Assembly: GCA_000026125.1 (NCBI GenBank)
Contig: CU207211.1
Coordinates: 2,480,001 to 2,544,000 of the forward strand
Length of the DNA: 64,000 nt
DNA from: Herminiimonas arsenicoxydans
GTDB taxonomy: Bacteria > Pseudomonadota > Gammaproteobacteria > Burkholderiales > Burkholderiaceae_D
Direction of reading: 5' to 3'
Part shown: piece by piece, positions 23,654-39,850 of the stretch
Position numbering within the stretch: the stretch's first letter is position 1
How the letters are laid out: every line of letters begins with the position of its first letter
Position numbers and translations under genes: made by a program
Notes under the pieces: model-generated
Database searches by the model: none
Seen by the model: the letters and a program-made list of their open reading frames with translations, nothing else
Told to the model about the DNA's origin: nothing

Positions 23654-24316
23654 TCAAACGTTTTCAGCCAGCGGACTGCGATCCAGATGGTAGAGCGCAA
23701 CGATCAATCCTGCCGTCGACAAGAATAGAAACAGGGGGCCGAACAGCCAGAATGTCAGCGGCACCGCGACGAAAAATGCGCGCATGCCCAGTGTGTAAAA
23801 CACGCCCGCACTATTCAGGCGCTGTGCGATACGTTGCGGCGACAGGGAGCCTTGCGCATCGGCCTCCGGCAAATTCACCATGAAGACCACGTGATTGAGC
23901 AGGCGCAGGGTCATCGAGAAGGCAAAGAATGCGACCAGCAACACCGACAGCAGGCACATGATCTTGATTACCCACAAATCTGCGGCGCGGGAACCGGCAA
24001 TATCGAGCACATGCCAGGCCTTGGCCATATTCTCTGCCTGGCCGGACAGCGTCAGGGTCCCGAGTATCAGCAGGATAGAAGACGATGCCTTGAACGTCGC
24101 CGTCATGCCGAAGTTGCGCAGCGTCTGCACCGCCATCACGTCCTTCTTGCCCTGGCTGCGCATGACATCCATCACCCACAGCGCGCGCGCCTTCTGGTTG
24201 ACCGAATGCACAGTGAAATTCGGATCGCGCTTGACGCGCATCATCAGGAACAGGTAATACGCCAGCAGCAGCAATCCGCTGGCCAGCAATGCAATGACGT
24301 CGATATCGATACCCAT
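23654..24316 (-). CDS. DUF599 family membrane protein
   Basis: 220 residues from ATG 24316 (MGIDIDVIALLASG) behind AAAGGGAAAA. About four or five helices are visible: the N-terminal helix, then KASSSILLILGTLTL, IKIMCLLSVLLVAFFAF and a C-terminal WLFGPLFLFLSTAGLIVALY. The conserved DUF599 stretch VNQKARALWVMDVMRSQGKK lies after the first helix. Function is unknown for the family. The gap to fumC is 87 bp; co-transcription is possible but unproven. Confidence 0.85.
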   Translation of the reverse strand: MGIDIDVIALLASGLLLLAYYLFLMMRVKRDPNFTVHSVNQKARALWVMDVMRSQGKKDVMAVQTLRNFGMTATFKASSSILLILGTLTLSGQAENMAKAWHVLDIAGSRAADLWVIKIMCLLSVLLVAFFAFSMTLRLLNHVVFMVNLPEADAQGSLSPQRIAQRLNSAGVFYTLGMRAFFVAVPLTFWLFGPLFLFLSTAGLIVALYHLDRSPLAENV

Positions 24317-24585
24317 TTTTCCCTTTCGTTGAGTCCGCTTGCAATACGTTTTCCATACGATAGCAGACAGCACCCGCATGGTCGGACTAATCCTGAACCT
24401 GGCTGCGTTCCCGGTCTGTCATGAGCTGTGGTTGCAAGGATTTTCCGACAGCTTGGACATGATCGCAGCGGGCTGCATATAGATACGCGCAACGCGTCTG
24501 CACCGGTATTTCTTGCGCCATGTTGCCGCAAGAAATACAAACAAATTACCTGGTTGCAATTCAATATTTTATTGATGATCTTCTT

Positions 24586-24599
24586 TTGATATGGATCAT
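24586..24599 (+). promoter_or_regulatory. FNR/Anr-like box upstream of the dodecin operon
   Basis: TTGATATGGATCAT differs from the TTGAT-N4-ATCAA consensus at only the last base. Its centre is about 67 bp upstream of the dodecin ATG at 24660, compatible with class II activation (box near -41.5) with a short leader. The rest of the 343-bp gap 24317-24659 holds no gene that I can support. Confidence 0.65.
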
Positions 24600-24659
24600 T
24601 AACTATTCAAGATTCCAGGGTCTACAGTGAATAAATTAACGCTATCGAGGAATTTCATC

Positions 24660-24866
24660 ATGACGTTTCTTAAAGTACTGGAAGCATTGGCAGAGTCTGA
24701 CAAGAGTTGGGAAGATGCGGCACAGCATACAAGGCATCACGGAGCCAAAACGATGCACAACATCAAGTCCATCTACATCAAGGAAATAGAAGCCAGCGCC
24801 AACCAAAACAAGATCGTCAAATATCGGAGCCATGCAAAAAATTCATTCTTGCCGGATGAATCATAG
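24660..24866 (+). CDS. Dodecin family flavin-binding protein
   Basis: A 68-residue protein starting MTFLKVLEALAESDKSWEDAA, the dodecin pattern in which SxxSWEDAA follows the first strand; KTMHNIKSIYIKEIEAS then gives the second strand. ATG 24660 is chosen because GAGG lies 9 nt upstream. Dodecins form dodecamers that store or buffer riboflavin/FMN in the cytosol. The Trp of the flavin sandwich is not obvious in the second strand, so binding is uncertain and this may be a dodecin-like variant. It leads a likely three-gene operon behind an FNR-like box. Confidence 0.75.
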   Translation: MTFLKVLEALAESDKSWEDAAQHTRHHGAKTMHNIKSIYIKEIEASANQNKIVKYRSHAKNSFLPDES

Positions 24867-24920
24867 CTTGCCGCAAACAGGTTGGCATCCATTTTTCACA
24901 AGACTGTCGGGAGCACGACA

Positions 24921-26282
24921 ATGAACCAGATCGGCGGAACGATACGCTTTACGAACAGGACGCAAGCCGGAATATTGCTGGCGCAAAAACTCGCGGCGTA
25001 CGCGGGACGGCGCGATGTAGTCGTGCTGGCCTTGCCGCGCGGCGGCGTTCCTGTCGCCTTTGAGATCGCCCGGGCGCTGGAAGCCCCGCTCGATATTTTA
25101 CTGGTACGTAAGCTGGGCGTGCCCGGGCATGAGGAATATGCAATGGGAGCCATTGCAAGCGGCGGCGTATGCATCCTGCAGTCCGATGTGATCAGGCAGT
25201 TGGAGATACCACAGGCCGTCGTCGATGCCTTGGTGCAGCGTAAGCTGGAAGAAATGGCACAGCGCGAAAGACTGTATCGCAGCAACCGTCCCGCGCCAAA
25301 ACTGGAAGGCAACGTCGTGATTCTGGTCGATGATGGTCTGGCGACCGGTTCGACGATGCTGGCGGCAATTCACGCCTTGCGTCAATCCAGGCCGGCACGC
25401 ATGATCATCGCGATACCCGTCGGTGCGCGGGAATCGATAGGGAGCCTGCAAGCTGAGGTTGACGAAATTGTCTGTCTGTCGATCCCGGAATATTTTCAGG
25501 CGGTCGGCATGTCGTACAAAGATTTCAATCAAACCAGCGATGATGAAGTCATACACTTGCTCGACGAAGCCGCGCGTCTGCAGGCACGCGGTCGCCCTGC
25601 AGCGGAGGGACGGAAGATGCGGCCAGCGCACCATCAATTGATCGGCATACAAGCCAATGGCGTGCACATGGAAGGCATGCTCGAATTACCGCCGGATGCA
25701 GTCGGCATCGTCCTGTTTGCCCACGGCAGCGGCAGCAGTCGCCTCAGTCCGCGCAACAATTTCGTCGCCCGCTATCTGCATCAGGCGCGCATCGGTACCC
25801 TGCTGCTCGACCTGCTAACGGTGCAGGAAGACCGGAACTATGCCACGCGTTTCGATATTGCATTGCTGACGCGCCGCTTGAGTATCGCCTCTGACTGGCT
25901 GGGAACAAATGACAGCACGACAGGCCTGCCACTGGGCTTGTTCGGCGCCAGTACCGGTGCCGCAGCGGCACTGCAAGTCGCCGCTGCACGCGGCACCCGC
26001 ATTGCCGCCGTCGTGTCACGCGGTGGCCGGCCGGATCTGGCGGGTCTCATGGCGCTGCAGAACGTCAGCGCACCTACGCTGTTGATAGTCGGCGGCAATG
26101 ATGGTGGCGTGATCGAATTGAACCAGAGCGCTTATGCCGCGCTACGCTGCGAAAAAAAGTTGGAAATCGTTCCCGGTGCAACCCATCTGTTTGAGGAGCC
26201 CGGCACACTGGAAAAAGTGGCAGAACTTGCCTCCGCATGGTTCACACGGCATTTGACCCGGCCCGTGTCACCAGGGCAATGA
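24921..26282 (+). CDS. Phosphoribosyltransferase / dienelactone hydrolase-like fusion
   Basis: A 453-residue two-domain protein. Residues about 8-215 form a type I phosphoribosyltransferase with PRPP loop VDDGLATGST (Asp137-Asp138 onwards). Residues about 230-453 form an alpha/beta hydrolase with nucleophile Ser344 (GASTGA), Asp394 (GGNDGG) and His422 (GATHLF), an intact triad. Neither substrate is known. This fusion recurs in stress-gene clusters of Burkholderiales and Pseudomonas beside erythromycin-esterase-like genes, as here. The start at 24921 follows GGGAG. It lies 54 bp after the dodecin gene and 49 bp before the esterase gene. Confidence 0.88.
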   Translation: MNQIGGTIRFTNRTQAGILLAQKLAAYAGRRDVVVLALPRGGVPVAFEIARALEAPLDILLVRKLGVPGHEEYAMGAIASGGVCILQSDVIRQLEIPQAVVDALVQRKLEEMAQRERLYRSNRPAPKLEGNVVILVDDGLATGSTMLAAIHALRQSRPARMIIAIPVGARESIGSLQAEVDEIVCLSIPEYFQAVGMSYKDFNQTSDDEVIHLLDEAARLQARGRPAAEGRKMRPAHHQLIGIQANGVHMEGMLELPPDAVGIVLFAHGSGSSRLSPRNNFVARYLHQARIGTLLLDLLTVQEDRNYATRFDIALLTRRLSIASDWLGTNDSTTGLPLGLFGASTGAAAALQVAAARGTRIAAVVSRGGRPDLAGLMALQNVSAPTLLIVGGNDGGVIELNQSAYAALRCEKKLEIVPGATHLFEEPGTLEKVAELASAWFTRHLTRPVSPGQ

Positions 26283-26331
26283 TCTGGCGTGGGGCGACAA
26301 CAGGATCCTCAATTTCTGGAAAGGTCTCAAC

Positions 26332-27663
26332 ATGACTACGCTCAATACAATTACCTCCTGTGCCCAGGTTTTGACGGGCGCCAGGAATGACTATGATGCG
26401 CTGCTGGAGCAGATAGGCGACGCGCGTTTCGTCTTGCTGGGCGAAGCCAGCCACGGCACGCATGAGTTTTACCGCGAACGTGCGCTGATTACGCAGCGCC
26501 TGATCAAAGAATGCCATTTCACCGCTGTCGCAGTCGAAGCCGACTGGCCCGACGCCTATCGCGTCAATCGCTATGTCTGCAATCAGAGTGATGATGAAAA
26601 CAGCGAACAGGCGCTGATCGGATTCAAGCGTTTCCCGACCTGGATGTGGCGCAATACCGATGTCGTCGACTTTGTCGACTGGCTGCGCGACCACAACGAT
26701 GGCATTTCGCCGCAAGTCCCCAAGACAGGTTTTTACGGCCTCGATCTGTACAGCATGTTCACCTCGATGGAAGAAGTACTGCATTACCTGGACAAGGTGG
26801 ATCCGGCTGCCGCAGCACAGGCCCGGGCTCGCTACGCATGCTTCGATCACTTCGACCGCGACAGCCAGAGTTACGGTTATGCAACCAGCATCGGCATGTC
26901 AACCTCTTGCGAAAACGCCGTGGTGCAGCAATTAAGCGAACTCCTCAAGCAGTCAGAAAAATACCTGCAACACGATGGCGCTGCCGCAAGTAATGCCTTT
27001 TTTTACGCACAGCAGAATGCGCGCCTCGTCATCAACGCCGAACAGTACTATCGCACTATGTTCCGCGGCCGCATCTCATCGTGGAACCTGCGCGACAGCC
27101 ACATGACCGAGACGCTGGAAGCGCTGGGGCAGCATCTATTGCAGGTAAACCAGGAGCAGGCGAAGATTGTGGTCTGGGCGCACAACTCGCATCTGGGCGA
27201 TGCGCGTGCCACCGAAGCCAAGCAGCGCGGCGAATGGAATGTAGGCCAGCTGGTGCGTCAGTTGCATGGCGGGCAGGCATTTTCGGTCGGCTTCATGGCG
27301 AACAGTGGAACGGTGACTGCCGCGTCCGGCTGGGATGAAGTAGCCGAGCGCAAGCGTGTCCGCCCTGCCCTGGCGGGCAGTTATGAAGCACTCTTCCATC
27401 AAGCCGGCATGGAGCGCTTCATGCTGCCCTTGCGCGGCAAAAGCGCAGCGACGCAAGCATTGATGCAGCCGCATCTGGAACGTGCAATCGGTGTCATTTA
27501 CGCGCCTGAAACTGAAAGGCAGAGTCACTATTTTTATGCGACCCTGCCGCAGCAATTCGATGCCCTGCTGTACTTCGATCAGACGCACGCAGTCAAACCG
27601 CTGGAGTTAAGCAGTCACTGGGTAAATGGAGAAGCACCGGAAACCTTCCCGCTCGGCATCTAG
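26332..27663 (+). CDS. Erythromycin esterase family protein
   Basis: 443 residues with the Ere signature LLGEASHGTHEFYRER (about residues 33-48, containing the essential His) and later AVAVEADWPDAYRVN, AHNSHLGDARATE and VGFMANSGTV. Characterised members (EreA/EreB) hydrolyse macrolide lactones. Chromosomal members in stress clusters, like this one, are probably hydrolases of unknown natural substrate, so macrolide resistance should not be assumed. It is the third gene of the FNR-box operon. No signal peptide is seen, so it is cytosolic. GGAAAGG precedes the ATG. Confidence 0.88.
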   Translation: MTTLNTITSCAQVLTGARNDYDALLEQIGDARFVLLGEASHGTHEFYRERALITQRLIKECHFTAVAVEADWPDAYRVNRYVCNQSDDENSEQALIGFKRFPTWMWRNTDVVDFVDWLRDHNDGISPQVPKTGFYGLDLYSMFTSMEEVLHYLDKVDPAAAAQARARYACFDHFDRDSQSYGYATSIGMSTSCENAVVQQLSELLKQSEKYLQHDGAAASNAFFYAQQNARLVINAEQYYRTMFRGRISSWNLRDSHMTETLEALGQHLLQVNQEQAKIVVWAHNSHLGDARATEAKQRGEWNVGQLVRQLHGGQAFSVGFMANSGTVTAASGWDEVAERKRVRPALAGSYEALFHQAGMERFMLPLRGKSAATQALMQPHLERAIGVIYAPETERQSHYFYATLPQQFDALLYFDQTHAVKPLELSSHWVNGEAPETFPLGI

Positions 27664-28247
27664 ATCCGTTCATGCCCGCGGCACCGGCAGCTGCATGGAC
27701 GGATCAATGCAGACTGGCGCCTTCTCGCCCCTGCTCATTCGACAATCCATTAAATGAATGCGCTGCATCCGAACGGGGATAAGCAGGGAGGAGGCGATTG
27801 CGCATATCGATTTGATGACACGACAGAACTCTGCCATGGTGCAGCCATGGGCAGCAGGAACCCAGTCTTTGTAAAGCCAGGTCGATGGTGTCAGCAATTC
27901 CATGCGCATGCTCCGTCTTGCTACCGGCGAAATGAGGCTATCGCAGATTGATGCGCCGAGTCCGCAAATTACTGCAGGATGAAACTTGAGTGGAACGTAA
28001 CAAATGCAGAAAGAAAAGAATGGCCGGGGAACTACGGAACCATTTTCCTTTCAGACACATGGATGAAAAGTTCTTGATGGATTGCAGACTTGCGGTATCT
28101 GATATGGTTTGACCAGACACTCGCCCCTGCCTCCCTTCTTTTTGACGAGAACGAAATCGAAGCCCGGGATGCGCATTTGGTGGGCGCTTGCTTGTCCCCC
28201 TACTGGATACAAGGTATTTCCCGCTTAATCAAACAGAATGGAAATGG
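27664..28247. other. 584-bp intergenic region, no supported gene
   Basis: Short open frames occur on both strands but none has convincing coding character. An imperfect inverted repeat (GATCCGTTCATG at 27663 and CATGGACGGATC near 27693) sits just past the esterase stop and could form a hairpin, but no T-run follows. The segment may be decayed sequence. Confidence 0.5.
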
Positions 28248-29057
28248 ATGACCTCATCTTTACAAATCGGTCCGCTTGCGGTGCCGTACTCGCTTATTTT
28301 GATTGCCGCAGCAGTTTTCTTCGGCAACCTCATTGCGAGGCGCGTGGACAAGGGTGCTGAAAAAACCATCGAAAATCATTTTTTCTGGATCCTCATGGTC
28401 GCGGTACTGTCGGCTCGCGTCGCATTTGTCATTCAGTACAAAACAGCTTACCTTTCCATTCCATTAGACATTATTGACATCCGCGATGGCGGCTGGAACG
28501 CGCAGGCGGGCGTGATAGCTGCATGGGCATACGCACTTCTGCTGATGAAAGGAAAAGCTTGCCTGAGGAAGCCGCTCCTCCTCGTGATGTTCGGTTCCAG
28601 TCTGGTGTGGATAGGCGGAACGATCGCCCTGGCAGCGCTGACCAAGGACCCGTCCCCTATTCCGGATTTGAAACTTCAATCAATGAATGGGGATGAGGTT
28701 TATCTGGCCAGGTTTGACGGCAAGCCAACAGTCATCAATCTTTGGGCAACTTGGTGCCCTCCTTGTCAGAGAGAGATGCCCGTGTTTGCGAAAGCGCAGC
28801 AACAGAATCCCGGCATTCATTTTGTGTTTATCAACCAGGGCGAATCAAGGTTGCTGGTTGAGCAGTTTCTGACAAAAAACAAGCTGACGATGCAAAATGT
28901 ACTCATCGATGCATCGGGTGCCGCCGGGAAGGCATTTGAAGTGAAAGGGATGCCTTCGACCTATTTTTTCGATGCAAACGGCAAGCTGCTAGACTCTCGC
29001 CTTGGAGAGGTATCCGACGCAAGCCTGATGGAAAAGCTGCAGAAAATAAATCCTTAG
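28248..29057 (+). CDS. Lgt-like membrane domain fused to a TlpA-type thioredoxin
   Basis: A 269-residue protein from ATG 28248. Residues 1-130 contain four hydrophobic helices and resemble a shortened Lgt (prolipoprotein diacylglyceryl transferase) membrane domain: LQIGPLAVPYSLILIAA, then LSARVAFVIQY and DGGWNAQAGVIAAW. Residues 135-269 are a TlpA/ResA thioredoxin domain with the redox motif WCPPC (Cys170, Cys173) and a cis-Pro in KGMPSTYFF. The thioredoxin domain should be periplasmic and probably reduces or isomerises disulphides. Key Lgt catalytic residues are not obvious, so the membrane part may only be an anchor or electron conduit. Confidence 0.8.
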   Translation: MTSSLQIGPLAVPYSLILIAAAVFFGNLIARRVDKGAEKTIENHFFWILMVAVLSARVAFVIQYKTAYLSIPLDIIDIRDGGWNAQAGVIAAWAYALLLMKGKACLRKPLLLVMFGSSLVWIGGTIALAALTKDPSPIPDLKLQSMNGDEVYLARFDGKPTVINLWATWCPPCQREMPVFAKAQQQNPGIHFVFINQGESRLLVEQFLTKNKLTMQNVLIDASGAAGKAFEVKGMPSTYFFDANGKLLDSRLGEVSDASLMEKLQKINP

Positions 29058-29379
29058 TACTATCCTCCCAGGGAATATCCAAGATTTCCAATCGAATACT
29101 TGATCTTGTACCAAGTCTTTAAGCCGCAGAAAACTGGGGCCTCCAGAACGTTTTTGCATTGCTGGCGACGCAGTGCAGGCACAAGTGCCATATGCCAGCT
29201 GCCGGGCCACAGGATGTGAAATGCGCAAGAGTGTTTCATGTACTCGTTCAGCACAGTTAGCCACACCTTCCTTGCTCTGATCGGCATAATTCCCTGTGCT
29301 TCTTGAAGGCAGGACCTTAACCGGCTCTGCATGCATAAGCCCGATGGGTTGCTGTGCTTCTGCCAACCCTCAAAAAATC
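29058..29379. other. 322-bp intergenic region, no supported gene
   Basis: I see no convincing gene, terminator or consensus promoter here. The segment presumably carries the promoter of the MFS gene at 29380. Confidence 0.45.
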
Positions 29380-30609
29380 ATGAAAACAGAATTTACGTAC
29401 AACGAAGCAGACATCAACCTGGAAGCAACGGGCAAGATCGCGAAGCAGAAGCTGCCGCTGTCATCACTCCTTGCCTTGACCATGGCGAGCTTCATCGTCA
29501 TTCTCACAGAGGTACTGCCCGCCGGCCTGCTGCCGCAGATCGCAGCCAGCCTGAATAGCTCCGAGGCTTTGATGGGGCAACTGATCACCGTCTACGCGCT
29601 CGGCTCGCTGGTGTCGGCTATTCCCCTTGCTGCTGCGACGCAGGGCGTCGATCGTCGTACGCTTCTGGTGATAGCCATTGCCGGCTTCGGCATCGTCAAC
29701 ACCATCACCGCGGTATCCGATAACCTGATAGTCATCTTCGTGGCCCGATTCCTGGGCGGCGTTGCCGCCGGGCTGGTATGGTCGATGATTGCCGGCTATG
29801 CCGCCCGCATGGTTCCTGAAAATCAGAAAGGTCGTGCGATTGCGATCGCCATGGCGGGCACGCCGCTCGCCCTCACTATGGGTATTCCGATAGGTGCCTT
29901 TTTGGGTAATTTCGTAGGCTGGCGCATTGCGTTCGGCCTGATCAGCGCGCTCGCTCTATTGCTGATCTTCTGGATCATGGCAAAACTGCCCGCGTTCCCA
30001 ACGAACGGCGAGGAAAAGCGCCAGAACGTCGCCGGCGTTTTCGTGCTCCCCGGCATGCGGCCTGTCATGGCAACCATGCTCCTGTACGTTCTCGCGCACA
30101 GCATTCTTTACACCTATATTGCGCCCCTCCTGGCTTTGGCAGAGCTGGTGCAAAGTACGGACTTCATCCTGCTGGTCTTTGGCGGTACCTCGCTCGTCGG
30201 ACTGCTCCTGGTCGGCATTCTCGTAGACCGCTGGTTGCGTCAGCTGGCATTAACCAGTACTGCGCTGTTTCTGTTTGCAAGTGTCCTGTTTGTCTTGTTT
30301 CCTGCCTCACCATCTGTCGTCTACGTCTCGGTAGGACTGTGGGGCCTCGCGTTCGGCGGGGTCGCAACCTTGTTCGTGACCGCGATAGCCAACGCGGCAG
30401 GCCCGGCGCAGGACGTTGCTCAATCCATTACAACCACGGTCTGGAATACAGCCATCGGCGCCGGCAGCCTCGTGGGAGGCATGCTGCTGGACCGGTTCGG
30501 CGCACATTCCTTCTCGTATGCCGCGACGGCGACCTTGCTTGCCGCGCTGCTGATAAGCTGGCTTACCCGCAACAAGTTCTACTGGCGCGGAGCGACAGCT
30601 CTGGCGTGA
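29380..30609 (+). CDS. MFS transporter, DHA1/AraJ-like efflux type
   Basis: 409 residues with 12 predicted helices. The first helix is LLALTMASFIVILTEVLPAGLLPQ, typical of AraJ/YdhP/sugar-efflux type members. The motif-A-like region between helices 2 and 3 is ATQGVDRRTLL, and RFLGGVAAGLVWSMIAGYAAR matches the DHA1 motif in helices 4-5. It likely exports small drugs or sugars with proton antiport; the substrate is unknown. ATG 29380 is preferred over upstream starts because they add non-conserved residues, though the SD is poor. Confidence 0.85.
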   Translation: MKTEFTYNEADINLEATGKIAKQKLPLSSLLALTMASFIVILTEVLPAGLLPQIAASLNSSEALMGQLITVYALGSLVSAIPLAAATQGVDRRTLLVIAIAGFGIVNTITAVSDNLIVIFVARFLGGVAAGLVWSMIAGYAARMVPENQKGRAIAIAMAGTPLALTMGIPIGAFLGNFVGWRIAFGLISALALLLIFWIMAKLPAFPTNGEEKRQNVAGVFVLPGMRPVMATMLLYVLAHSILYTYIAPLLALAELVQSTDFILLVFGGTSLVGLLLVGILVDRWLRQLALTSTALFLFASVLFVLFPASPSVVYVSVGLWGLAFGGVATLFVTAIANAAGPAQDVAQSITTTVWNTAIGAGSLVGGMLLDRFGAHSFSYAATATLLAALLISWLTRNKFYWRGATALA

Positions 30610-30639
30610 TCGGCAAATGAAATATTGAGTGAATATTCA

Positions 30640-30923
30640 ACATTTTTCATGGCGCACTGTCATGCAATTTTCCATTTCAGTCCACGCCAGCAGTACTTAG
30701 TGTAAGCGCTCCATCGCGCCGCTATTTCGCAAGGCTGGACGCGCGAAATCGGCATGCACATCTGCTCTTCGATTGGCCGGGCGAGAGCCTGAGTAAGGTC
30801 TTTATGCTAAATAAAGGCAAGCTCGCGGGGCATGATCTGCGAAAGGCGGGCTGCCGCGATCAGAACATCGGCCAGCCCGTTGAAACGCGCGTCTATCGCG
30901 GCCATACGAATACCAGACGTTGA
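30640..30923 (+). other. Possible decayed tyrosine-recombinase 3' end
   Basis: One plus frame is open from about 30660 to a TGA at 30921-30923 without a proper start. Near its end it reads SLSKVFMLNKGKLAGHDLRKAG (codons from 30786), where GHDLRK resembles the HxLR box of tyrosine integrases. The downstream Tyr motif is not intact. The frame overlaps the minus-strand gene at 30893 by about 30 bp. It is weak evidence for an integrase relic at the border of an accessory segment. Confidence 0.2.
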
Positions 30924-31303
30924 TGCGTTCCTTTTTTTATCAGGACTCTCTGCAATTTGCGCAGGTCATTCTGTATCGCTTCGACCTGATAACTCCCATC
31001 AGGCAAGTTAGCGAGAAAAAACGGTCCTTCCGACACGGCATCGACTACAGTCTTGCCGGTCTTGTCTCGTATAAGAATACGGAAATCGGCTGTGTATTCT
31101 TCCCGTGGTTCAGTCTTCACCACAGACACGACTTCCAATGCATACCGGGAAGCCATCGATTTCATTTCTGCAGCTTCGTCCGAACCAACGCCGCCTGAGA
31201 TATAGGTAGCCTGTCCAGAGGTGACTTCGCTCGGTGCTGCGCCCGCTACCGGGATTTGCATCAGTGCCAGGATGAGGAGAAGGTATGAAGATCGCGTAGA
31301 CAT
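30893..31303 (-). CDS. Secreted protein of unknown function, carboxypeptidase-regulatory-like
   Basis: 136 residues from ATG 31303; AGGGGT lies upstream. A signal peptide ends near VAGAAPS (about residue 23). The mature part contains ISGGVGSDEAAEMKSMASRY and a beta-rich region (FRILIRDKTGKTVVDAVSEG, FFLANLPDGSYQVEAIQND) resembling the prealbumin-like carboxypeptidase-regulatory fold. No catalytic residues are evident. An FNR-like box lies about 105 bp upstream, as for neighbouring genes, so induction at low oxygen is plausible. Confidence 0.7.
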   Translation of the reverse strand: MSTRSSYLLLILALMQIPVAGAAPSEVTSGQATYISGGVGSDEAAEMKSMASRYALEVVSVVKTEPREEYTADFRILIRDKTGKTVVDAVSEGPFFLANLPDGSYQVEAIQNDLRKLQRVLIKKGTHQRLVFVWPR

Positions 31304-31401
31304 AATAGTTACCCCTAAGAGGTAGACAAGAAAGTCAAACAACGGGCAAGCGATGCAAGGTCATCGCAAGTTCAAGGATAGTTCCACGGCAGGCCGGCTA
31401 T

Positions 31402-31415
31402 ATGATCCATGTCAA
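31402..31415 (-). promoter_or_regulatory. FNR/Anr-like box upstream of the secreted-protein gene
   Basis: Read on the minus strand, TTGACATGGATCAT fits TTGAT-N4-ATCAA with two mismatches and shares its N4 (ATGG) with the box at 24586. It is about 105 bp upstream of the ATG at 31303. The 31304-31652 gap contains no other supported gene. Confidence 0.45.
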
Positions 31416-31591
31416 ATGCGTAAACAAATTACAGGCTGGGCATGAGGTCGCTGGTCATGCTCTACTGTGCCGCCAGAAAAATTCGCCCGTCTCGCATGAA
31501 GGCCAGGCCAAGCGGGCGCTTGACTACGGCAATGCGCGCCATCCGTCGCCTGCGTCCCACCATGCACCAAGGGATCCGTTTTGAAAGCCTT

Positions 31592-31632
31592 GCTTCACTG
31601 ACAGCCCGTGGCTTCACGGCTGTCAGTGAAGC
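31592..31632 (-). terminator. Perfect 15-bp inverted repeat downstream of the glycine-zipper lipoprotein gene
   Basis: GCTTCACTGACAGCC (31592-31606) and GGCTGTCAGTGAAGC (31618-31632) are perfect inverted copies with an 11-nt loop. They lie 20 bp past the stop of the minus-strand gene at 31653. There is no T-run on either side, so it may stabilise the 3' end or terminate inefficiently rather than act as a classical intrinsic terminator. Confidence 0.55.
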
Positions 31633-31652
31633 TCTTCGACAACAATGCCAGA

Positions 31653-32081
31653 TCAACGAATTATCGGCACATTATTGCCCTTCGCGTACATGCATTGCGC
31701 ATAGCTAATATCGTACGAACGCTGGGCGCCGTACGTTCCATACTGTGACGCGTTGGCACCGGCGGCGCTGCCAACCAGCAAGCCTGCGCCGGCACCAGTA
31801 CCGGCACCCCGGTGACTGCCACCGATTGCAGCTCCCGCCGCTGCGCCGATCACCGTGCCAATCGCTGCACTTCCTACCGCTTTATTATTGGCCGACTGCA
31901 CCGCTCCGCCAGTTTGGTTGGCGGCATATTGACGGCAGACAATGTCGTCGACGTTAAATTGTTCAAAGCTCTTGCCTGCACCCGGCATCACCGCAATACT
32001 TGGGCCGGTGGGCGCGCTTGCACATCCAGCCAACAACACTAACAGCATGGCGCTCATTAAAGGCACATCTATGGATTTCAT
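31653..32081 (-). CDS. Glycine-zipper lipoprotein
   Basis: A 142-residue lipoprotein: signal MKSIDVPLMSAMLLVLLAGC with the lipidated Cys at residue 20. Residues about 65-115 form a glycine-zipper membrane segment (IGTVIGAAAGAAIGG, GAGAGLLVGSAAGA) like SlyB/OmpA-associated proteins. A C-terminal SYDISYAQCMYAKGNNVP motif carries one Cys, which could pair with the Cys in VDDIVCRQYA. The likely location is the outer membrane inner leaflet. It follows the Gly/His/Tyr-rich secreted gene by 54 bp, so it is probably operonic with the Spy-like gene upstream. Confidence 0.8.
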   Translation of the reverse strand: MKSIDVPLMSAMLLVLLAGCASAPTGPSIAVMPGAGKSFEQFNVDDIVCRQYAANQTGGAVQSANNKAVGSAAIGTVIGAAAGAAIGGSHRGAGTGAGAGLLVGSAAGANASQYGTYGAQRSYDISYAQCMYAKGNNVPIIR

Positions 32082-32135
32082 CTTTTTTCCTCTTATGCAA
32101 AAAATACCGCTTGCCGGTGGCAAACAAGTTGCATC

Positions 32136-32645
32136 TCATCTCCCGGGAATTGGTGCTGGCGGAATGGCTGGAACGACTTGCCAGCCTTCCGGACATTGAC
32201 TCACATAGGGGGAATAAGTTTTCGCCGATGCGCAGTAGTACCAATTCGCATTCGCCGGGACAGTAGTGGATGGCGGAGCCGTTTGATAGACGGGAGCGCC
32301 CTCGATAACCACGGCAGGTGGGACTGGATAATAGTAGTAATCGGGATATGGGTAACCATAATAGGAAAGATCCCATCCCAAGCCTATTCCCAAACCGACG
32401 CCCCACCAAATCGGAGCTCCTCCGTACCGCCGCCCGCCACCGCGCCAGCCTTCGTTTGGATGGACGACGCCTGGATGGACGACACCTGGATGGATGGCGC
32501 GATGAGAGAGGCCGGAATGTATGCCGCCCATACTGCCGGAAACACGACCTCCACCATGCGCTTGCGCGAAGGCCGGGAGAGAGCTGCCAGCCAACGCCAA
32601 TGCCGCAGCCAGAAACACGACGCGCTTCAATATTTGCTTATTCAT
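32136..32645 (-). CDS. Secreted Gly/His/Tyr-rich protein with C-terminal WYYC motif
   Basis: 169 residues from ATG 32645; signal peptide cleaved at AFAQA (about residue 28). A low-complexity Gly/His/Pro/Tyr-rich middle (repeated HPGVVHPGVVHP) precedes a compact C-terminal domain with NWYYCASAKTYSPYV and CPEGWQVVP, a two-Cys pattern repeatedly seen in small secreted proteobacterial proteins. Function is unknown. The His-rich segment could bind metal ions (inference). It lies 66 bp downstream of the Spy-like gene and upstream of a glycine-zipper lipoprotein gene. Confidence 0.75.
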   Translation of the reverse strand: MNKQILKRVVFLAAALALAGSSLPAFAQAHGGGRVSGSMGGIHSGLSHRAIHPGVVHPGVVHPNEGWRGGGRRYGGAPIWWGVGLGIGLGWDLSYYGYPYPDYYYYPVPPAVVIEGAPVYQTAPPSTTVPANANWYYCASAKTYSPYVSQCPEGWQVVPAIPPAPIPGR

Positions 32646-32711
32646 GATCGTATCCACTAGAGATTGGAATTCGGATAGTCTTGCATCCGCCGTCTCGATC
32701 AAGCGATTGAA

Positions 32712-33224
32712 TTACTCACGGCAAGGCCCGGAAACCCTGTGATACATCACATGCCAGAATAGATCGAAGATAGTCTTTTGATTTGAGTCCAAGACATCGT
32801 AGAAAGTTTTTGTGCGGACCTGTGCAGCTTCGAGCTGCGCCAAATGGGCTTGCATCCAAGTCGTTTCCGCGCGCAGACAGGCGATGCCGCGCGTCATCTG
32901 ATCCGGCGTACTCTCGCTAATCCAGCCATTGGAATGCCGCATCGTTCGATGGCACTCTTCGGCGCGTGCGCCGAATTGCCTATGGGCATCGCCCAAGACA
33001 CCAGCAGACCAGGCACTCCAAGCGGAACCTTGCGCGGGAGTCAGATTCAGTTTCGCTTTCAATTCATCCAGCGTGACCTGGGTATGCTTGACCCAGTCAA
33101 ACTGCGCTTGCCCCATACCGCGCTGAGATGGCATCGTCGCACCAGCTGCCGCCATCGACGACAAGGGGACGGAGCAGATAAGCAACATCAGATATTGAAT
33201 CACAACGCTTGATAAGTTTCTCAT
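32712..33224 (-). CDS. Spy/CpxP-like LTXXQ periplasmic protein
   Basis: 170 residues from ATG 33224 behind AAAGGAG. A signal peptide ends near SSMAAAG (about residue 27). The LTXXQ-type motif KLNLTPAQGSAWSAW lies at about residues 60-75, and the rest is helical, as in Spy/CpxP chaperones that bind unfolded periplasmic proteins. An in-frame ATG at 33311 would bury the signal peptide. It is the first gene of a minus-strand secreted/lipoprotein set. An FNR-like box at 33291 lies about 73 bp upstream. Confidence 0.78.
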   Translation of the reverse strand: MRNLSSVVIQYLMLLICSVPLSSMAAAGATMPSQRGMGQAQFDWVKHTQVTLDELKAKLNLTPAQGSAWSAWSAGVLGDAHRQFGARAEECHRTMRHSNGWISESTPDQMTRGIACLRAETTWMQAHLAQLEAAQVRTKTFYDVLDSNQKTIFDLFWHVMYHRVSGPCRE

Positions 33225-33290
33225 CGCGCACTCCTTTGAAGCAGGGGGGAACCTACTTGATGAAGTATAAGTAGCGTCGAACACTGCAAT

Positions 33291-33304
33291 GTGATCTATG
33301 TCAA
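33291..33304 (-). promoter_or_regulatory. FNR/Anr-like box for the Spy-like gene cluster
   Basis: On the minus strand TTGACATAGATCAC matches TTGAT-N4-ATCAA with two mismatches. It is centred about 73 bp upstream of the ATG at 33224. A second, perfect box for the divergent gene lies 57 bp away. Confidence 0.45.
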
Positions 33305-33361
33305 ACCGCACTTACTCGGCCTGATCAAGCCGATATGTAATTTGCACGTTGCATGGCTTCC

Positions 33362-33375
33362 TTGATCCACATCAA
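33362..33375 (+). promoter_or_regulatory. Perfect FNR/Anr box upstream of the OYE-nitroreductase pair
   Basis: TTGATCCACATCAA is an exact match to TTGAT-N4-ATCAA. Its centre is about 65 bp upstream of the ATG at 33434, nearly the same spacing as the dodecin box. A near-palindrome TCGGCCTGATCAAGCCGA (33316-33333) lies between the two divergent FNR boxes and could be a second operator. Confidence 0.75.
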
Positions 33376-33433
33376 TCGACGGCACACAAAGCAATGCAAC
33401 ATTGCGATCCTGAGCAACAGGAAGGATGCTGCC

Positions 33434-34540
33434 ATGGCTACTTTGTTTGAACCATTAAAGTTGCGCGACATCAAGTTGAGGAACCGGATCGGCATACCGC
33501 CGATGTGTCAGTACTCAGCGCAAGATGGTATGCCGTCGGCATGGCATACCGTGCACTATGGAAGTCGTGCCATCGGTGGTGCCGGCTTGATGATCCTGGA
33601 GGCGACTGCTGTTTCCGAAGATGGACGAATCAGCACAGGCGACTTGGGCATCTGGAAGGATGCGCACATCGAGCCCTTGTCCCACATCGCACGCTTCGCA
33701 ACGGAAAACGAATGTGCTGCCGCAATTCAGCTCGCCCACGCAGGTCGCAAAGCAGGCGTGGCACTCGGTTGGCAGGAGCAAGGGAGCCTGCCACCGAACG
33801 AGGGCGGCTGGCGTACACATGCGCCTTCGCCGATCGCCTTCGGCCCGAAGTTCGCGACGCCAGTCGAATTAAACGTGAATGAAATAACGACGATTGTTGC
33901 GACGTTCGCATCTGCCGCCCGACGTGCTCTCGCTGCCGGTTTTCCGGTCATAGAAATCCATGCCGCGCACGGCTACCTGCTGCACCAGTTCCTTTCCCCG
34001 CTTTCCAACAAGCGCACTGATGACTACGGCGGCAGCTTTATCAATCGAACCCGCATGCTGCGCGAAGTAATCACTTCTGTACGTGCAGTATGGCCGGACA
34101 GGCTACCGATGCTGGTGCGACTTTCCGCGACGGATTGGGCCGATCATGGTTGGAATATAGAGGAAACGATAGAACTGTGCCGGCAGATGGCGCCACTGGG
34201 GGTCGATCTGGTCGATGTATCGTCGGGCGGACTGGTTCCCGATGTGACGGTCCCCGAAGGCCCAGGCTATCAAACCGAGTTCTCCGCAAGAATTCGCCGC
34301 GAGTCGGGCATGCGGACTTCGGCGGTCGGGATGATCACTTCACCAGAACAGGCCGATCACGTCATTCGCAGCGAACAGGCAGACCTGGTATTGATCGGTC
34401 GTGAAATATTGCGCGATCCGTATTGGCCTTTGCACGCGGCACGCGCTCTGGGATTTTCAATCGAATGGCCGGCACAGTATGGGCGCGCGGCTCCGCCAGG
34501 ATCGACATCGAGAATGCGACACGCGGTGTGTGCGCCATAA
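33434..34540 (+). CDS. Old yellow enzyme (NADH:flavin oxidoreductase, YqjM/XenA-like)
   Basis: A 368-residue TIM-barrel flavoprotein from ATG 33434 behind AGGAAGG. Signature elements are PPMCQYSAQDG near residue 23 (Cys that tunes the flavin in XenA/YqjM), QLAHAGRKAG (active-site His), EIHAAHGYLLHQFLSP, RTDDYGGSFINR and LVLIGREILRDPYWP. It reduces activated C=C bonds using FMN and NAD(P)H. The partner nitroreductase is 40 bp downstream, so the pair forms a flavin-dependent reductase operon behind a perfect FNR box. Its C-terminal tail is slightly extended. Confidence 0.93.
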   Translation: MATLFEPLKLRDIKLRNRIGIPPMCQYSAQDGMPSAWHTVHYGSRAIGGAGLMILEATAVSEDGRISTGDLGIWKDAHIEPLSHIARFATENECAAAIQLAHAGRKAGVALGWQEQGSLPPNEGGWRTHAPSPIAFGPKFATPVELNVNEITTIVATFASAARRALAAGFPVIEIHAAHGYLLHQFLSPLSNKRTDDYGGSFINRTRMLREVITSVRAVWPDRLPMLVRLSATDWADHGWNIEETIELCRQMAPLGVDLVDVSSGGLVPDVTVPEGPGYQTEFSARIRRESGMRTSAVGMITSPEQADHVIRSEQADLVLIGREILRDPYWPLHAARALGFSIEWPAQYGRAAPPGSTSRMRHAVCAP

Positions 34541-34580
34541 CGCAAGCCGTAGCGGAAATTTTTCAAATGAGGAGAACGAC

Positions 34581-35147
34581 ATGGAATTATTTGATGCAAT
34601 CCAAAATCGTCGCGCCATTCGCGAATACACCACACAAGGCGTGGATGAAGGCACCGTTAGAAAGTTGATCGATGCGGCAATTCATGCGCCGAGCGCAGTC
34701 AATGAGCAGCCCTGGACATTTACCATTGTGCGCGATCAGGCCAAGCTCGATGAATTATCCACCCAGGCAAAAGCTCATATGCTGAAGACCATGTCCGATG
34801 ATCCAAGGGCGCCACATTTTCGCTCGTACCTGGAGTCGCCTGACTTTCATATTTTTTACCATGCACCGGCACTGATTGTGATTTCGTCAGCGGACAAGGG
34901 ACCTTGGGCCGTCGAAGATTGTACGCTCGCCGCACAAAATTTGATGCTTGCTGCCCACGGCTTGGGATTGGGCTCGTGCTGGATCGGCTTTGCACAACAG
35001 TACCTGAACACCGATGCAGGGAAAGCCATGTTGAATCTTCCCCAGGAATGGCTTGCGGTTGCCCCCATCATCGTTGGACATCCGAGCAACAAGGTTCCTG
35101 CCACCCCACGCAAGGAACCCGTGATCTACTGGGTCGGCCATGATTAG
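34581..35147 (+). CDS. Nitroreductase family FMN protein
   Basis: 188 residues from ATG 34581 behind GAGGAGA. The FMN-binding N-terminus AIQNRRAIREYT (about residues 6-17) and AAIHAPSAVNEQPWTF (about 33-48) are typical, followed by AAQNLMLAAHGLGLGSCWIG. It is a dimeric cytosolic enzyme reducing nitro compounds or quinones. It is probably co-transcribed with the OYE gene and hence under the same FNR-like control. Confidence 0.92.
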   Translation: MELFDAIQNRRAIREYTTQGVDEGTVRKLIDAAIHAPSAVNEQPWTFTIVRDQAKLDELSTQAKAHMLKTMSDDPRAPHFRSYLESPDFHIFYHAPALIVISSADKGPWAVEDCTLAAQNLMLAAHGLGLGSCWIGFAQQYLNTDAGKAMLNLPQEWLAVAPIIVGHPSNKVPATPRKEPVIYWVGHD

Positions 35148-35237
35148 TCTCCGGCGCGGAAAATAACAGATGACGGACTGATTCGGATTCAACAGCGCAA
35201 CGTCGAAGTCCTTGCCTGTTGAGTCACATATAAGCCA

Positions 35238-36014
35238 TCACGTTTCTTTCGAAAAATGATTGACCAGCTGGAAAGAAGGCGTCAGTTTCGCTAACTCCAG
35301 ATCAAAGCGTTGATCCAGTTTTTGCGCACGATTAAACAGCATCGAACGAAATACACCTGCATCATTTCCTTTGACGAAAAAGGCGATGTAGTTGTAGCTG
35401 TCATCGGTCCTGCACCACCATATACGCCAATCGGTTTCCAGTAGCGCATCTGCAATAGCCGGGGCCATGGAGGTCGGGCGATCCCACAAATTGGATACCA
35501 GAACTCCTTGCGGAGCAAGAGTGTGCAGACAGGCTCGATAGAAATCACTCGTACCTAGTTCGGATGCTGGCCCATCGGCAGAAAAGCCGTCCAGCATGAT
35601 GACATCAGCGATGCCTTCCGGCTGATCCCGCATATATACAGCGGCGTCAGCCTGGATGATTTCAAGGCGTTGGTCATCAGCCGGGATCATGAAATGGTCG
35701 CGCAACGCAATGACTTCAGCGTGCAGCTCCAATACGGTGATGCGGGTGGAAGGAAAATGCCGATAGCAATACTTGACCAGCGACCCACCGCCCAGACCGA
35801 CCATCAAGATGTGTTTTGGCGCTGGCTGGAACAACAGGAAACCCATCATGGCCCGCGTGTAGCTCAGCAGCAGCTTGTCAGGTGCGGAAATCGACATCGC
35901 GCTCTGTATGTATTGGTGGTCGAAATGCAGCGTGCGCATGCCATCGTTATCGAAGACAAAGGGCTTGCCTCCACTTTGCCGAAGCAGCAATTCGAAGGGG
36001 CTAGGATTCGTCAT
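35238..36014 (-). CDS. Spermidine synthase-like methyltransferase-fold protein
   Basis: 258 residues with a spermidine-synthase-type Rossmann domain: ILMVGLGGGSLVKYCYRH (motif I, about residues 69-86), VLELHAEVIALRDHF, QADAAVYMRDQPEG and DVIMLDGFSADGP. The N-terminal beta-domain of true SpeE is short and the DGE-type catalytic loop is not evident, so polyamine synthesis is uncertain. Related stand-alone proteins are usually called polyamine-aminopropyltransferase-like. It is convergent with the nitroreductase gene. Confidence 0.82.
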   Translation of the reverse strand: MTNPSPFELLLRQSGGKPFVFDNDGMRTLHFDHQYIQSAMSISAPDKLLLSYTRAMMGFLLFQPAPKHILMVGLGGGSLVKYCYRHFPSTRITVLELHAEVIALRDHFMIPADDQRLEIIQADAAVYMRDQPEGIADVIMLDGFSADGPASELGTSDFYRACLHTLAPQGVLVSNLWDRPTSMAPAIADALLETDWRIWWCRTDDSYNYIAFFVKGNDAGVFRSMLFNRAQKLDQRFDLELAKLTPSFQLVNHFSKET

Positions 36015-36142
36015 GTGAGGTGGGAGTGCAGCATGTTGCCGAGGTGGCGGTCCACCTGGTTGGCGCGCTCGCTGCTACTGAGCAGGCGCAAATAATGTAG
36101 CGACATATGTTGTTATCGGAATCCTTAACCTAAAAAGGGATA

Positions 36143-36496
36143 TCACACCAATACGTGGCGTACCTGCCTGAAATAGCGATAGACCCCCTCTTCAACTTCG
36201 GGGGCAACCATTACTTCAGGCCGCCTGCCATTTGGACAGGCCAGCTTCGGCGTCGTTCCAAACAGCCGGCAGACCAGCGGCCGTTCGTCATATACCTGGC
36301 AGCCATCGGCTCCTAAATGCGGACAGCTCAATGCGGCAAGTGCGGCGTCCTGCTCCTGTTCACTCTTGCGCGGCAGACGCGCCATTTCAACACTGGACGC
36401 CAGCACCGGGCCACAGCAATCGTGGCATCCCGGAACGCAGGCAAATGCGGGGATGCGTTGCCTGAAAAACTTGATTGTCTGGCTGTGTTTATCCAT
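36143..36496 (-). CDS. YkgJ family cysteine-cluster protein
   Basis: 117 residues with the Zn/Fe-S-like Cys cluster: ACVPGCHDCCGPV (about residues 19-31), SCPHLGADGCQVYDERPLVCRLFG (about 68-91) and a later LACPNGR. This CxxC(x)n pattern defines the family (CxxCxxxCC-type). The metal and function are unestablished; some members are rRNA-associated. No operon partner is adjacent. Confidence 0.88.
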   Translation of the reverse strand: MDKHSQTIKFFRQRIPAFACVPGCHDCCGPVLASSVEMARLPRKSEQEQDAALAALSCPHLGADGCQVYDERPLVCRLFGTTPKLACPNGRRPEVMVAPEVEEGVYRYFRQVRHVLV

Positions 36497-36618
36497 TAAC
36501 TACTAACGCCTGCGAGATTTCATGTGCCTTGCGAAACATGACAATGTAATGATCATCATCTGATTACGTATGATCATAGCAGTCTGCTGCCAACGGCTGC
36601 GGATTCAACAATGGTGTA

Positions 36619-36885
36619 TGTTGATTTACAGCGAAACTGACCTGTGTTTAGAACACTATCCTACTTAGCAAAGCGAGCAGGATGTATGGGTTGATCGACG
36701 TTCCCCGACTTCTCTCAACAAATGCGCGTTCAAGCTTTCAGCCTGGATAAAGATCGCGGCAACAAAGTCACGCAAGCAACGTCGGACCTTGAAACAAATA
36801 CCCATCAACTTGTGTGCATTGGGATATGAAGGGGCGGCGTATAACCGGGTTGCCGCCTTCGCCAGACAGTGGAAAGTGGATCAAA
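36619..36885 (+). mobile_element. Decayed IS21-family left end with istA fragment (copy 1)
   Basis: Begins TGTTGATTTACA, an IS21-type terminus also present at 39347. The following sequence aligns by eye with copy 2: GATCGACGTTCCCCGACTTCTCTC, then the segment encoding QIPINLCALGYEG and RVAAFARQWKVDQ, homologous to IstA. About 145 bp of istA 5' sequence are missing. The gap is explained by deletion between two ATCGACGT repeats that both survive in copy 2 (39422-39429 and 39567-39574). The reading frame is broken, and istB and the right end are absent. Confidence 0.75.
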
Positions 36886-36893
36886 GTGTCGAA

Positions 36894-37021
36894 ATTCATT
36901 TATCTCTAAAGTCTGTTTTGCCCAGAATCAATGAGTTAGCAACTCCGTACTCATTCAAGTTTGAACCCAATATTCACTTATCTCTGAACTTTTACGGTTT
37001 ACGTTCATTTATCTCTGAACT
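36894..37021 (+). repeat. Three direct copies of a 19-bp motif (TTCATTTATCTCTGAACT type)
   Basis: Copies lie at 36894-36910 (ATTCATTTATCTCTAAA), 36972-36990 (ATTCACTTATCTCTGAACT) and 37003-37021 (GTTCATTTATCTCTGAACT). Two further copies in inverse orientation follow the second IS21 remnant at 39811-39850. They may be terminal repeats of a lost mobile element; the element type is not identified. Confidence 0.6.
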
Positions 37022-37216
37022 GAGTGAGCACTTGATAACCCTAGTCAGAATTATCAGTTTTATAAAAAACAGGAGTTGAGGCTGGCGTTCAGTAGCCGAT
37101 GTTTGCCTTCGACCCAAAGCGGACATCGCAAAAATTGGAGGATTTTCAGTAGTGTAACGCTGTGCCGAATGGGCGGCACGCCTAGCCTCATGCCATGGCA
37201 TTCTGCTCAAGTTAAA

Positions 37217-39046: not shown

Positions 39047-39346
39047 TTAATAGACGCCTGATTTCCGCTTGCGATGCGCGGTTTCAAACTTATTCGGACT
39101 GACGCCGCCAAGATGACTGTGTCGTCTTACCATATTGTAGAAGTCATCAATGTATTCGGCCAGATCAAGTGTAGCGGTTTCGCGATCAGCATAAATACGC
39201 TTCTTGATACGCTCTTTCTTTAAACTGCTGAAGAAGGACTCTGCCACAGCGTTATCCCAGCAATTCGCTCGTCTACTCATACTCGGTTCGAGATGATTGG
39301 CCTCGCAGAATCGTCGCCAGGCGTCGCTGCCGCACTGCGTTCCTTG
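39047..39346 (-). pseudogene. IS3-family transposase (orfB) 3' fragment
   Basis: The minus frame encodes the C-terminal DDE region: GTQCGSDAWRRFCEANH, LEPSMSRRANCWDNAVAESF (with the catalytic Glu), then EYIDDFYNMVRRHSHLGG and a normal C-terminus with stop at 39047. The frame runs upstream past 39280 to 39346, where it is cut exactly by the IS21-type terminus TGTTGATTTGCA. The IS3 copy was therefore older and was interrupted by IS21. It is inactive, lacking orfA and most of orfB. Confidence 0.85.
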
Positions 39347-39760
39347 TGTTGATTTGCATCGAAAACTGACCCACGCTTAGAACACAATCCTACTTACCAA
39401 AGTGAGTGGGAGATTGGAGTAATCGACGTGGCATTACTTGGAATTATTCGACGCTGGCACCTTCGTGACCAGGTCTCATTGAGGGAAGTATCCAAACGAC
39501 TAAGTATCTCTCGAAATACCGTTAGACGGTATCTACGCGCTGAAACTGTCGAGCCAGCGTACGCTGATCGACGTTCCCCGACTTCTCTCGACAAATATGC
39601 GTTCAAGCTTTCAGCCTGGTTAACGACTGAGACAACGAAGTCACGCAAGCAACGACGGACTTTGAAACAGATGCATATCGATCTATATGCATTGGGATTT
39701 GAAGGGTCGTATGACCGGGTCGCAGCCTTCGACAGACAGTGGAAGGCGGATCAGTTAGAG
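39347..39760 (+). mobile_element. IS21-family left end with truncated istA (copy 2)
   Basis: Starts TGTTGATTTGCATCGAAAAC at 39347, inside the IS3 fragment. From 39428 it encodes the N-terminus of an IstA-like transposase: MALLGIIRRWHLRDQVSLRE, an HTH (SKRLSISRNTVRRYLRA), then LKQMHIDLYALGFEGSYDRV. The match to copy 1 ends near 39755 and the frame closes at 39823. IstB and the right end are missing. It retains the two ATCGACGT repeats that explain the deletion in copy 1. Confidence 0.82.
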
Positions 39761-39810
39761 AGGGTCAACTCTGCGAGCAAATCAACACAAGTAAGGAAAA
39801 AAGCCATCGT

Positions 39811-39850
39811 AGCTCAGAGATAAAAGAATGAAGTTCAGAGATAAAAGAAT
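39811..39850 (-). repeat. Two inverted-orientation copies of the 19-bp motif
   Basis: AGCTCAGAGATAAAAGAAT (39811-39829) and AGTTCAGAGATAAAAGAAT (39832-39850) are tandem, 21 bp apart, and are the reverse complement of the motif at 36894-37021. They end 35 bp before the groES promoter. Confidence 0.6.

Follow-up and report, generated by a model that had tools for sequence, protein, structure and literature searches.

Do the FNR-like boxes gathered in one part of the Herminiimonas arsenicoxydans genome place the genes behind them under oxygen control, and how do these genes relate to the low-oxygen-activated (lxa) locus of Burkholderia, which they had been said to resemble? We examined a window of 64,000 nucleotides (positions 2,480,001-2,544,000 of the single-contig genome, CU207211.1, 3,424,307 bases); coordinates refer to this window unless a genome position is given. 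A preliminary description, made from the letters of the window, had reported boxes of the TTGATN4ATCAA type at 24586, 31402, 33291 and 33362, and each is present at that place. We consider it quite probable that the four are binding sites of an oxygen-sensing FNR/Anr protein that regulates the adjoining gene groups. They are listed here with their scores on the matrix introduced below.

24586..24599, plus strand: FNR box TTGATATGGATCAT, one mismatch to TTGATN4ATCAA, score 14.7; likely promoter of the dodecin, phosphoribosyltransferase (PRT)::hydrolase and esterase genes, centre 67.5 bp before the ATG
31402..31415, minus strand: FNR box TTGACATGGATCAT (forward letters ATGATCCATGTCAA), two mismatches, score 12.7; presumed target the gene at 30893, centre 105.5 bp before the ATG; the weakest of the four
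33291..33304, minus strand: FNR box TTGACATAGATCAC (forward letters GTGATCTATGTCAA), two mismatches, score 13.8; likely promoter of the Spy-like gene, centre 73.5 bp before the ATG
33362..33375, plus strand: perfect FNR box TTGATCCACATCAA, no mismatch, score 19.9; likely promoter of the old-yellow-enzyme (OYE) and nitroreductase genes, centre 65.5 bp before the ATG

The near-equal spacing of 66-67 bp described for two of the boxes is borne out by the centres of those before the dodecin and OYE genes. On its gene strand, the box at 31402 differs by one base from TTGACATGGATCAA, which occurs at genome positions 2322530 and 2341652.

Enrichment and architecture of the boxes

At up to two mismatches, 42 boxes were counted against a mean of 31.7 expected, and 42 was reached in two of 100 shuffles, which is weak evidence. 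This count was too weak to decide, and we therefore used a matrix derived from 25 training boxes outside the window, all of which match the strict core and lie in promoter zones, defined as sequence outside the genes called by our script or at most 100 nt from a called start. Five window genes missed by the script were masked by hand. The reversed pattern was tried as a background and dropped, as its composition differs.

The 13,733 promoter-zone bases of the window hold five sites scoring at least 12 (33362, 24586, 33291, 39349 and 31402, in descending order), whereas a first-order Markov background predicts 0.39. When upstream regions were shuffled preserving dinucleotides, their best score was matched in 13 of 3000 shuffles for 24586, in 9 of 3000 for 31402 and in none of 3000 for the interval 33225-33433. 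For comparison, 40 stretches of the genome were sampled, 20 of them roughly evenly spread and 20 placed around perfect boxes or regulator genes; of the 864,000 bases of the genome covered, 209,800 count as promoter zone. At a threshold of 12.7, the window has five sites, against one in the 93,121 zone bases of the evenly spread stretches, itself a training site. This corresponds to 3.64 versus 0.11 sites per 10 kb of promoter zone, a difference of about 33-fold. The stretches around perfect boxes or regulator genes contain 36 such sites in 102,946 zone bases. Genome-wide, there are 26 perfect boxes, all of them in the sequence covered; 17 lie between genes or no more than 100 nt from a called start. 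The window is denser in sites than the evenly spread stretches and does not resemble background, and boxes matching TTGATN4ATCAA are found in its promoters beyond chance. They are not confined to the four places, as had been claimed: 39349 scores 12.9, slightly above 31402, and 61509 scores 11.3. The site at 39349, a fifth FNR-like box absent from the earlier list, adjoins the insertion sequence (IS) remnants described below.

A −10-like hexamer centred 31 or 32 bp from the box centre is the appearance expected of a class II FNR promoter. Excerpts of one study mention a class II FNR test promoter at −41.5 (PMC4505428). For 24 of the 25 training boxes (2453529 was unused), representing 27 box-to-gene directions, we took the best hexamer at +30 to +33. 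It lay at +31 or +32 in all 27 directions and scored at least 4.5 in 14 of them, compared with 5.2% of random intergenic positions. Three boxes of the window are followed by −10-like hexamers, two at +31 and one at +33:

33264..33269, minus strand: −10-like TATACT, Spy-like gene, centre 31 bp from that of the 33291 box; score 5.6 (0.8% of random positions reach 5.5)
31375..31380, minus strand: −10-like TATCCT, 30893 gene, centre 31 bp from that of the 31402 box; score 4.7 (random 1.7-5.2%)
24623-24628, plus strand: −10-like TACAGT, dodecin gene, centre at +33; score 4.9 (random 1.7-5.2%)

When box and −10 scores are combined, the four best-ranked sites of the window are the four boxes (21.7, 20.2, 18.1, and 17.1 or 16.7), with 39349 next at 16.4; the −10 matrix used for this ranking is slightly too favourable, having been built without the two lowest of the 27 hexamers (plus direction of 1566793, 1452893). 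The value of 18.1 belongs to box 31402 with TATCCT; in a promoter zone of this size, a Markov background predicts 0.16 positions at 16 or above and 0.06 at 18 or above. Reading the TTGACA within the 33291 box as an ordinary −35 element was rejected, TATACT lying 29 bp beyond it. A simple promoter and terminator scan of 24300-36600 gave no excess over shuffles.

FNR proteins and an lxa-like locus elsewhere in the genome

Five proteins of the genome match PF13545, none of them encoded in the window, and four score above the cut-off. Two of the latter, encoded near 1.636 and 2.321 Mb, combine a CxxCx5C motif (three N-terminal cysteines read from the sequence) with an ESISR helix, and score 263.7 and 246.1 on the NCBIfam Fnr model, whose cut-off is 228. 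The other two lack the cysteine motif: one, near 1.6846 Mb, best matches FtrB below the FtrB cut-off, and the other matches no NCBIfam family. As a separate observation, the gene of the former has an upstream box, TTGACCTGGATCAA, at genome position 1685502, perhaps indicating a regulatory cascade.

Perfect or near-perfect boxes precede ccoN and two hemN genes, all three above their family cut-offs; ccoN and hemN are classical FNR/Anr targets. Another box lies ahead of a NarX/NarQ-like sensor gene, whose product scores below its cut-off, and five of the 13 universal stress protein (USP) matches of the genome have a box of at least 12 within 400 bp upstream. Because these genes are preceded by boxes, this type of box marks a genuine FNR/Anr regulon. 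Together with the enrichment and the two cysteine-motif proteins, this upholds the FNR/Anr-type reading of the preliminary description, which is well supported in silico.

At low oxygen, the Fe-S cluster of one or both of these FNR proteins would be stable and the dimer would bind the boxes, most likely activating from the class II position, with the box centred about 41.5 bp upstream of the start of transcription. This would turn on (i) the dodecin-like, PRT::hydrolase and esterase-family genes, (ii) the OYE and nitroreductase genes, (iii) the Spy-like protein and, perhaps, the secreted proteins encoded downstream, and (iv) a small secreted-looking protein.

The resemblance to lxa is less direct than first described. 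Excerpts of published work list six USPs, a heat shock protein, BON, cytochrome c, PhbB, an alcohol dehydrogenase and others in the lxa locus of Burkholderia cenocepacia (PMC6127331), place the FNR protein BCAM0287 in it (PMC4505428) and report it missing from strain H111 (PMC3759415). In H. arsenicoxydans, it is the region at 2.319-2.347 Mb that encodes Hsp20, BON, USP, PHB synthase, a short-chain reductase, a molybdo-oxidase, cytochrome c, a nitroreductase and an FNR protein, and the two stretches covering it hold 10 promoter-zone FNR sites of at least 12.7, training sites included. When the predicted proteins of 2.31-2.35 Mb were searched against the window (tblastn, E 1e-4), only dodecin had a relative, at 66% identity; no Hsp20, BON, PHB or cytochrome c gene of the lxa type was found there, and none of the 13 USP matches falls inside the window. 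For these reasons, the window was rejected as the lxa locus itself, and the lxa counterpart lies outside it. What survives of the claim is an indirect resemblance, because the PRT-hydrolase-esterase trio sits in the lxa-like locus of Herminiimonas fonticola, not in that of the present genome. The window would then be a peripheral part of an FNR regulon that has its lxa-like core at 2.319-2.347 Mb.

Genes behind the boxes and their history

Protein functions and operon structures given here are predictions. The genes concerned are the following.

24660..24866, plus strand: dodecin-family protein, 68 aa (PF07311), 66% identical to the paralogue in the lxa-like locus
24921..26282, plus strand: PRT fused to an alpha/beta (dienelactone-type) hydrolase; start codon picked by eye
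26332..27663, plus strand: erythromycin-esterase-family protein (PF05139)
30893..31303, minus strand: small protein lacking a Pfam match, with a signal-like N-terminus; presumably controlled from box 31402
31653..32081, minus strand: glycine-zipper protein (PF13441), whose gene may be a later member of the Spy-like unit
32136..32645, minus strand: secreted-looking protein, no Pfam match; downstream of the Spy-like gene
32712..33224, minus strand: Spy/LTXXQ-like protein (PF07813)
33434..34540, plus strand: OYE family, NamA-like (408.9 against a NamA cut-off of 431)
34581..35147, plus strand: nitroreductase family, starting 40 bp past the OYE stop

The OYE and nitroreductase genes probably form one operon. 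A terminator-like hairpin (consensus match only) at 32107-32127 lies before the glycine-zipper gene. Redox and envelope stress at low oxygen is the likely theme of the group. Two of the functions first proposed are not supported as stated. The protein described as an erythromycin esterase scores 40.6 against a cut-off of 750, and 24.6 against 800 bits, on the EreB/EreD models, far below both. Flavin handling is unsupported for the dodecin. In flavin-binding dodecins, which belong to the same PF07311 family, a Trp that stacks on the flavin and a Gln bind it; aligned to PDB dodecins, the window's protein has Ser and Arg at these positions, as do the other 119 of the 120 sequences listed among 674 homologues found. 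It has no PDB match at E 0.001; the best solved match of its paralogue in the lxa-like locus is 3onr, labelled SecE2. The PRT::hydrolase fusion was considered as a special feature and rejected, the best 120 of 8000 scored homologues being mostly of full fused length.

A literature search returned, among the matches listed, no published link of these window genes to FNR or low oxygen. Excerpts of the arsenic transcriptome of H. arsenicoxydans report two arsenite-induced uspA genes, and in its main text the terms HEAR24, HEAR25 and FNR are absent (PMC3022917).

A probable history of the PRT, hydrolase and esterase genes is suggested by the comparison with H. fonticola (locus L207), where the order is nitroreductase (minus strand), box, USP (minus), a third gene (minus), box, a 111-residue open reading frame, PRT, hydrolase and esterase. 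As in the window, the three genes stand in the same order behind an FNR box. In H. fonticola, however, PRT and hydrolase are separate genes and the trio lies in the core behind a molybdo-oxidase/cytochrome c remnant, whereas in H. arsenicoxydans PRT and hydrolase are fused and the trio lies beside dodecin, about 174 kb from the molybdo-oxidase of its own core. The remnant is the 111-residue frame (L207, 8120-8455), which fuses a molybdo-oxidase start to a cytochrome c end and looks like an in-frame deletion scar. The molybdo-oxidase and cytochrome c genes of H. arsenicoxydans are still at 2.330-2.332 Mb behind a box. Neither there nor elsewhere in the 40 genome stretches did the PRT, hydrolase or esterase find a match at E 1e-5, and whole-genome searches (E 1e-50, 1e-60) returned a single copy of the PRT fusion and of the esterase, both in the window.

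A move of the trio within the Herminiimonas lineage is the simplest reading of these data: a module that is a core member in H. fonticola probably came to lie beside a copy of the core's dodecin, keeping its FNR control. Its acquisition by horizontal transfer instead, a question of history and not of control, appears somewhat unlikely. The Collimonas copies are closer to those of the window than the H. fonticola copies are (77 versus 73% for the esterase, 71 versus 64-65% for the hydrolase), and in the hydrolase tree the window stands away from Herminiimonas. The codon-usage percentiles of the genes at 28-39 kb are mostly low, which suggests that these genes are perhaps acquired DNA, and they lie near IS remnants. 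By contrast, the window clusters with H. fonticola in the esterase tree (0.985) and with Herminiimonas in that of the PRT (0.76), while the codon usage of the PRT::hydrolase and esterase genes is average (percentiles 0.45 and 0.52). The IS remnants lie at 36789-37079, 39047-39280 and 39428-39823, on either side of an outer-membrane-protein gene and an HD-domain gene; we take them to be two IS21 IstA-like pieces and a fragment of an IS3-type transposase.

More tentatively, the move may have seeded a second low-oxygen island. The trio would have left the lxa-like locus, been replanted some 170 kb from it behind a duplicated dodecin gene of the non-flavin kind, and come under the FNR-controlled promoter of that gene. 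The OYE, nitroreductase, Spy-like and 30893 genes would have gained boxes of their own around the relocated promoter. We regard this extended scenario as doubtful.

Conservation of the boxes, rival explanations and known systems

Boxes recur before related operons. One lies at most 650 bp upstream of PRT in Collimonas, Herbaspirillum RV1423, H. fonticola and the relative G022. Among esterase loci with at least 69% identity, four of five have a box of at least 13.5 within 1.5 kb; in one of these four (G087), the gene behind the box is an Hsp20 gene more than 1.3 kb upstream. The nitroreductase has a box in its own promoter in two of four relatives found (G037, G019), and the Collimonas copy, at 87%, shows a box some 530 bp upstream, with the better −10 facing away. 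The dodecin paralogue of the same genome has a perfect box. As controls, 13 of 435 chunks of esterase loci and 2 of 57 OYE-locus chunks carry a box. In the esterase set, seven loci on contigs already included were dropped, and two (L198, L199), lacking the esterase, fell out.

Several observations weigh against FNR control of all these groups. At G021 (70%), fourth-nearest among the esterase loci, a box of at least 13.5 is missing within 1.5 kb. PRT stands in the operon at 61 of the 111 esterase loci of all taxa, and only 8 of these 61, nearest relatives included, have a box within 1.5 kb; at the remaining 50, without PRT in the operon, the figure is two. For the OYE gene (86 other genomes matched), a box of at least 12 was found in the 450 bp upstream of none of 29 other loci returned. 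For the 30893 gene (48 other genomes matched), none of 29 other loci returned had a box of at least 10 within 600 bp. Dodecin promoters at six loci of other genomes had no box of at least 12 (one scores 11.9, one 10.4), and a box accompanies one of ten Spy relatives. Within the window, the OYE promoter has a poor −10 (AACATT at +32, 3.7, random 15-29%; or CAACAT), the dodecin box scores slightly better facing away from its gene (17.1 versus 16.7), and box 31402, the weakest, is 105 bp from its start codon. Of the stretches sampled from the genome, half were, moreover, picked around boxes and regulator genes. The single oxygen switch proposed for all these genes is thus an inference from sequence, with OYE and 30893 boxes that were not found in relatives.

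In another reading, only 33362, 24586 and perhaps 33291 work, 31402 (and 39349) being chance or decayed sites; this is rather unlikely, and compatible with FNR control through the other boxes. Besides the weakness and distance of 31402 and its absence at the 29 other loci, 23 positions inside genes in the 864 kb sampled score as high. Set against this is the TATCCT at +31, which lifts 31402 to a combined score hardly expected in a promoter zone of the window's size. Recognition of the boxes by a different member of the Crp/Fnr family, such as an NO-responsive Dnr-type regulator, with a signal other than oxygen itself, is distinctly improbable. Dnr-type proteins bind nearly the same motif, and the genome has two cysteine-free candidates, one with a box upstream; yet these resemble FtrB below its cut-off or no NCBIfam family, whereas boxes of this kind also stand before ccoN and hemN and an FNR gene lies inside the lxa-like core. 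Fortuitous motifs before genes without common control are very unlikely: two-mismatch counts barely above shuffles and the OYE and 30893 boxes lacking in relatives would fit, but the roughly 33-fold density, the −10 spacing common to two or three of the four boxes and the boxes before related operons in Collimonas, Herbaspirillum and Herminiimonas do not.

Control by FNR/Anr, as preferred here, would connect oxygen limitation with a little-studied trio (phosphoribosyltransferase, alpha/beta hydrolase and esterase-family protein) and with a non-flavin dodecin subfamily, in a case where regulon membership seems to outlast operon relocation. The analysis also draws attention to the lxa-like locus at 2.319-2.347 Mb, outside the window.

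Compared with the regulons of Escherichia coli FNR and Pseudomonas Anr, the likeness lies in the box, given as TTGATNNNNATCAA in excerpts of two studies (PMC4505428, PMC6588701), the cysteine motif, ccoN and hemN among the boxed genes and, at two or three of the four boxes, a class II-like spacing; the difference is that the predicted targets in the window are stress and redox genes. As for the lxa locus of B. cenocepacia (BCAM0275-0323), the 2.319-2.347 Mb region shares USP, Hsp20/heat shock, BON, cytochrome c, PHB and FNR genes with it, whereas the window lacks these types except through the core's dodecin and carries the dodecin, PRT::hydrolase, esterase, OYE, nitroreductase and secreted-protein genes. 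The window has the look of a minor, peripheral piece of the genome's FNR regulon, in a low-oxygen survival programme such as related bacteria are already known to have.

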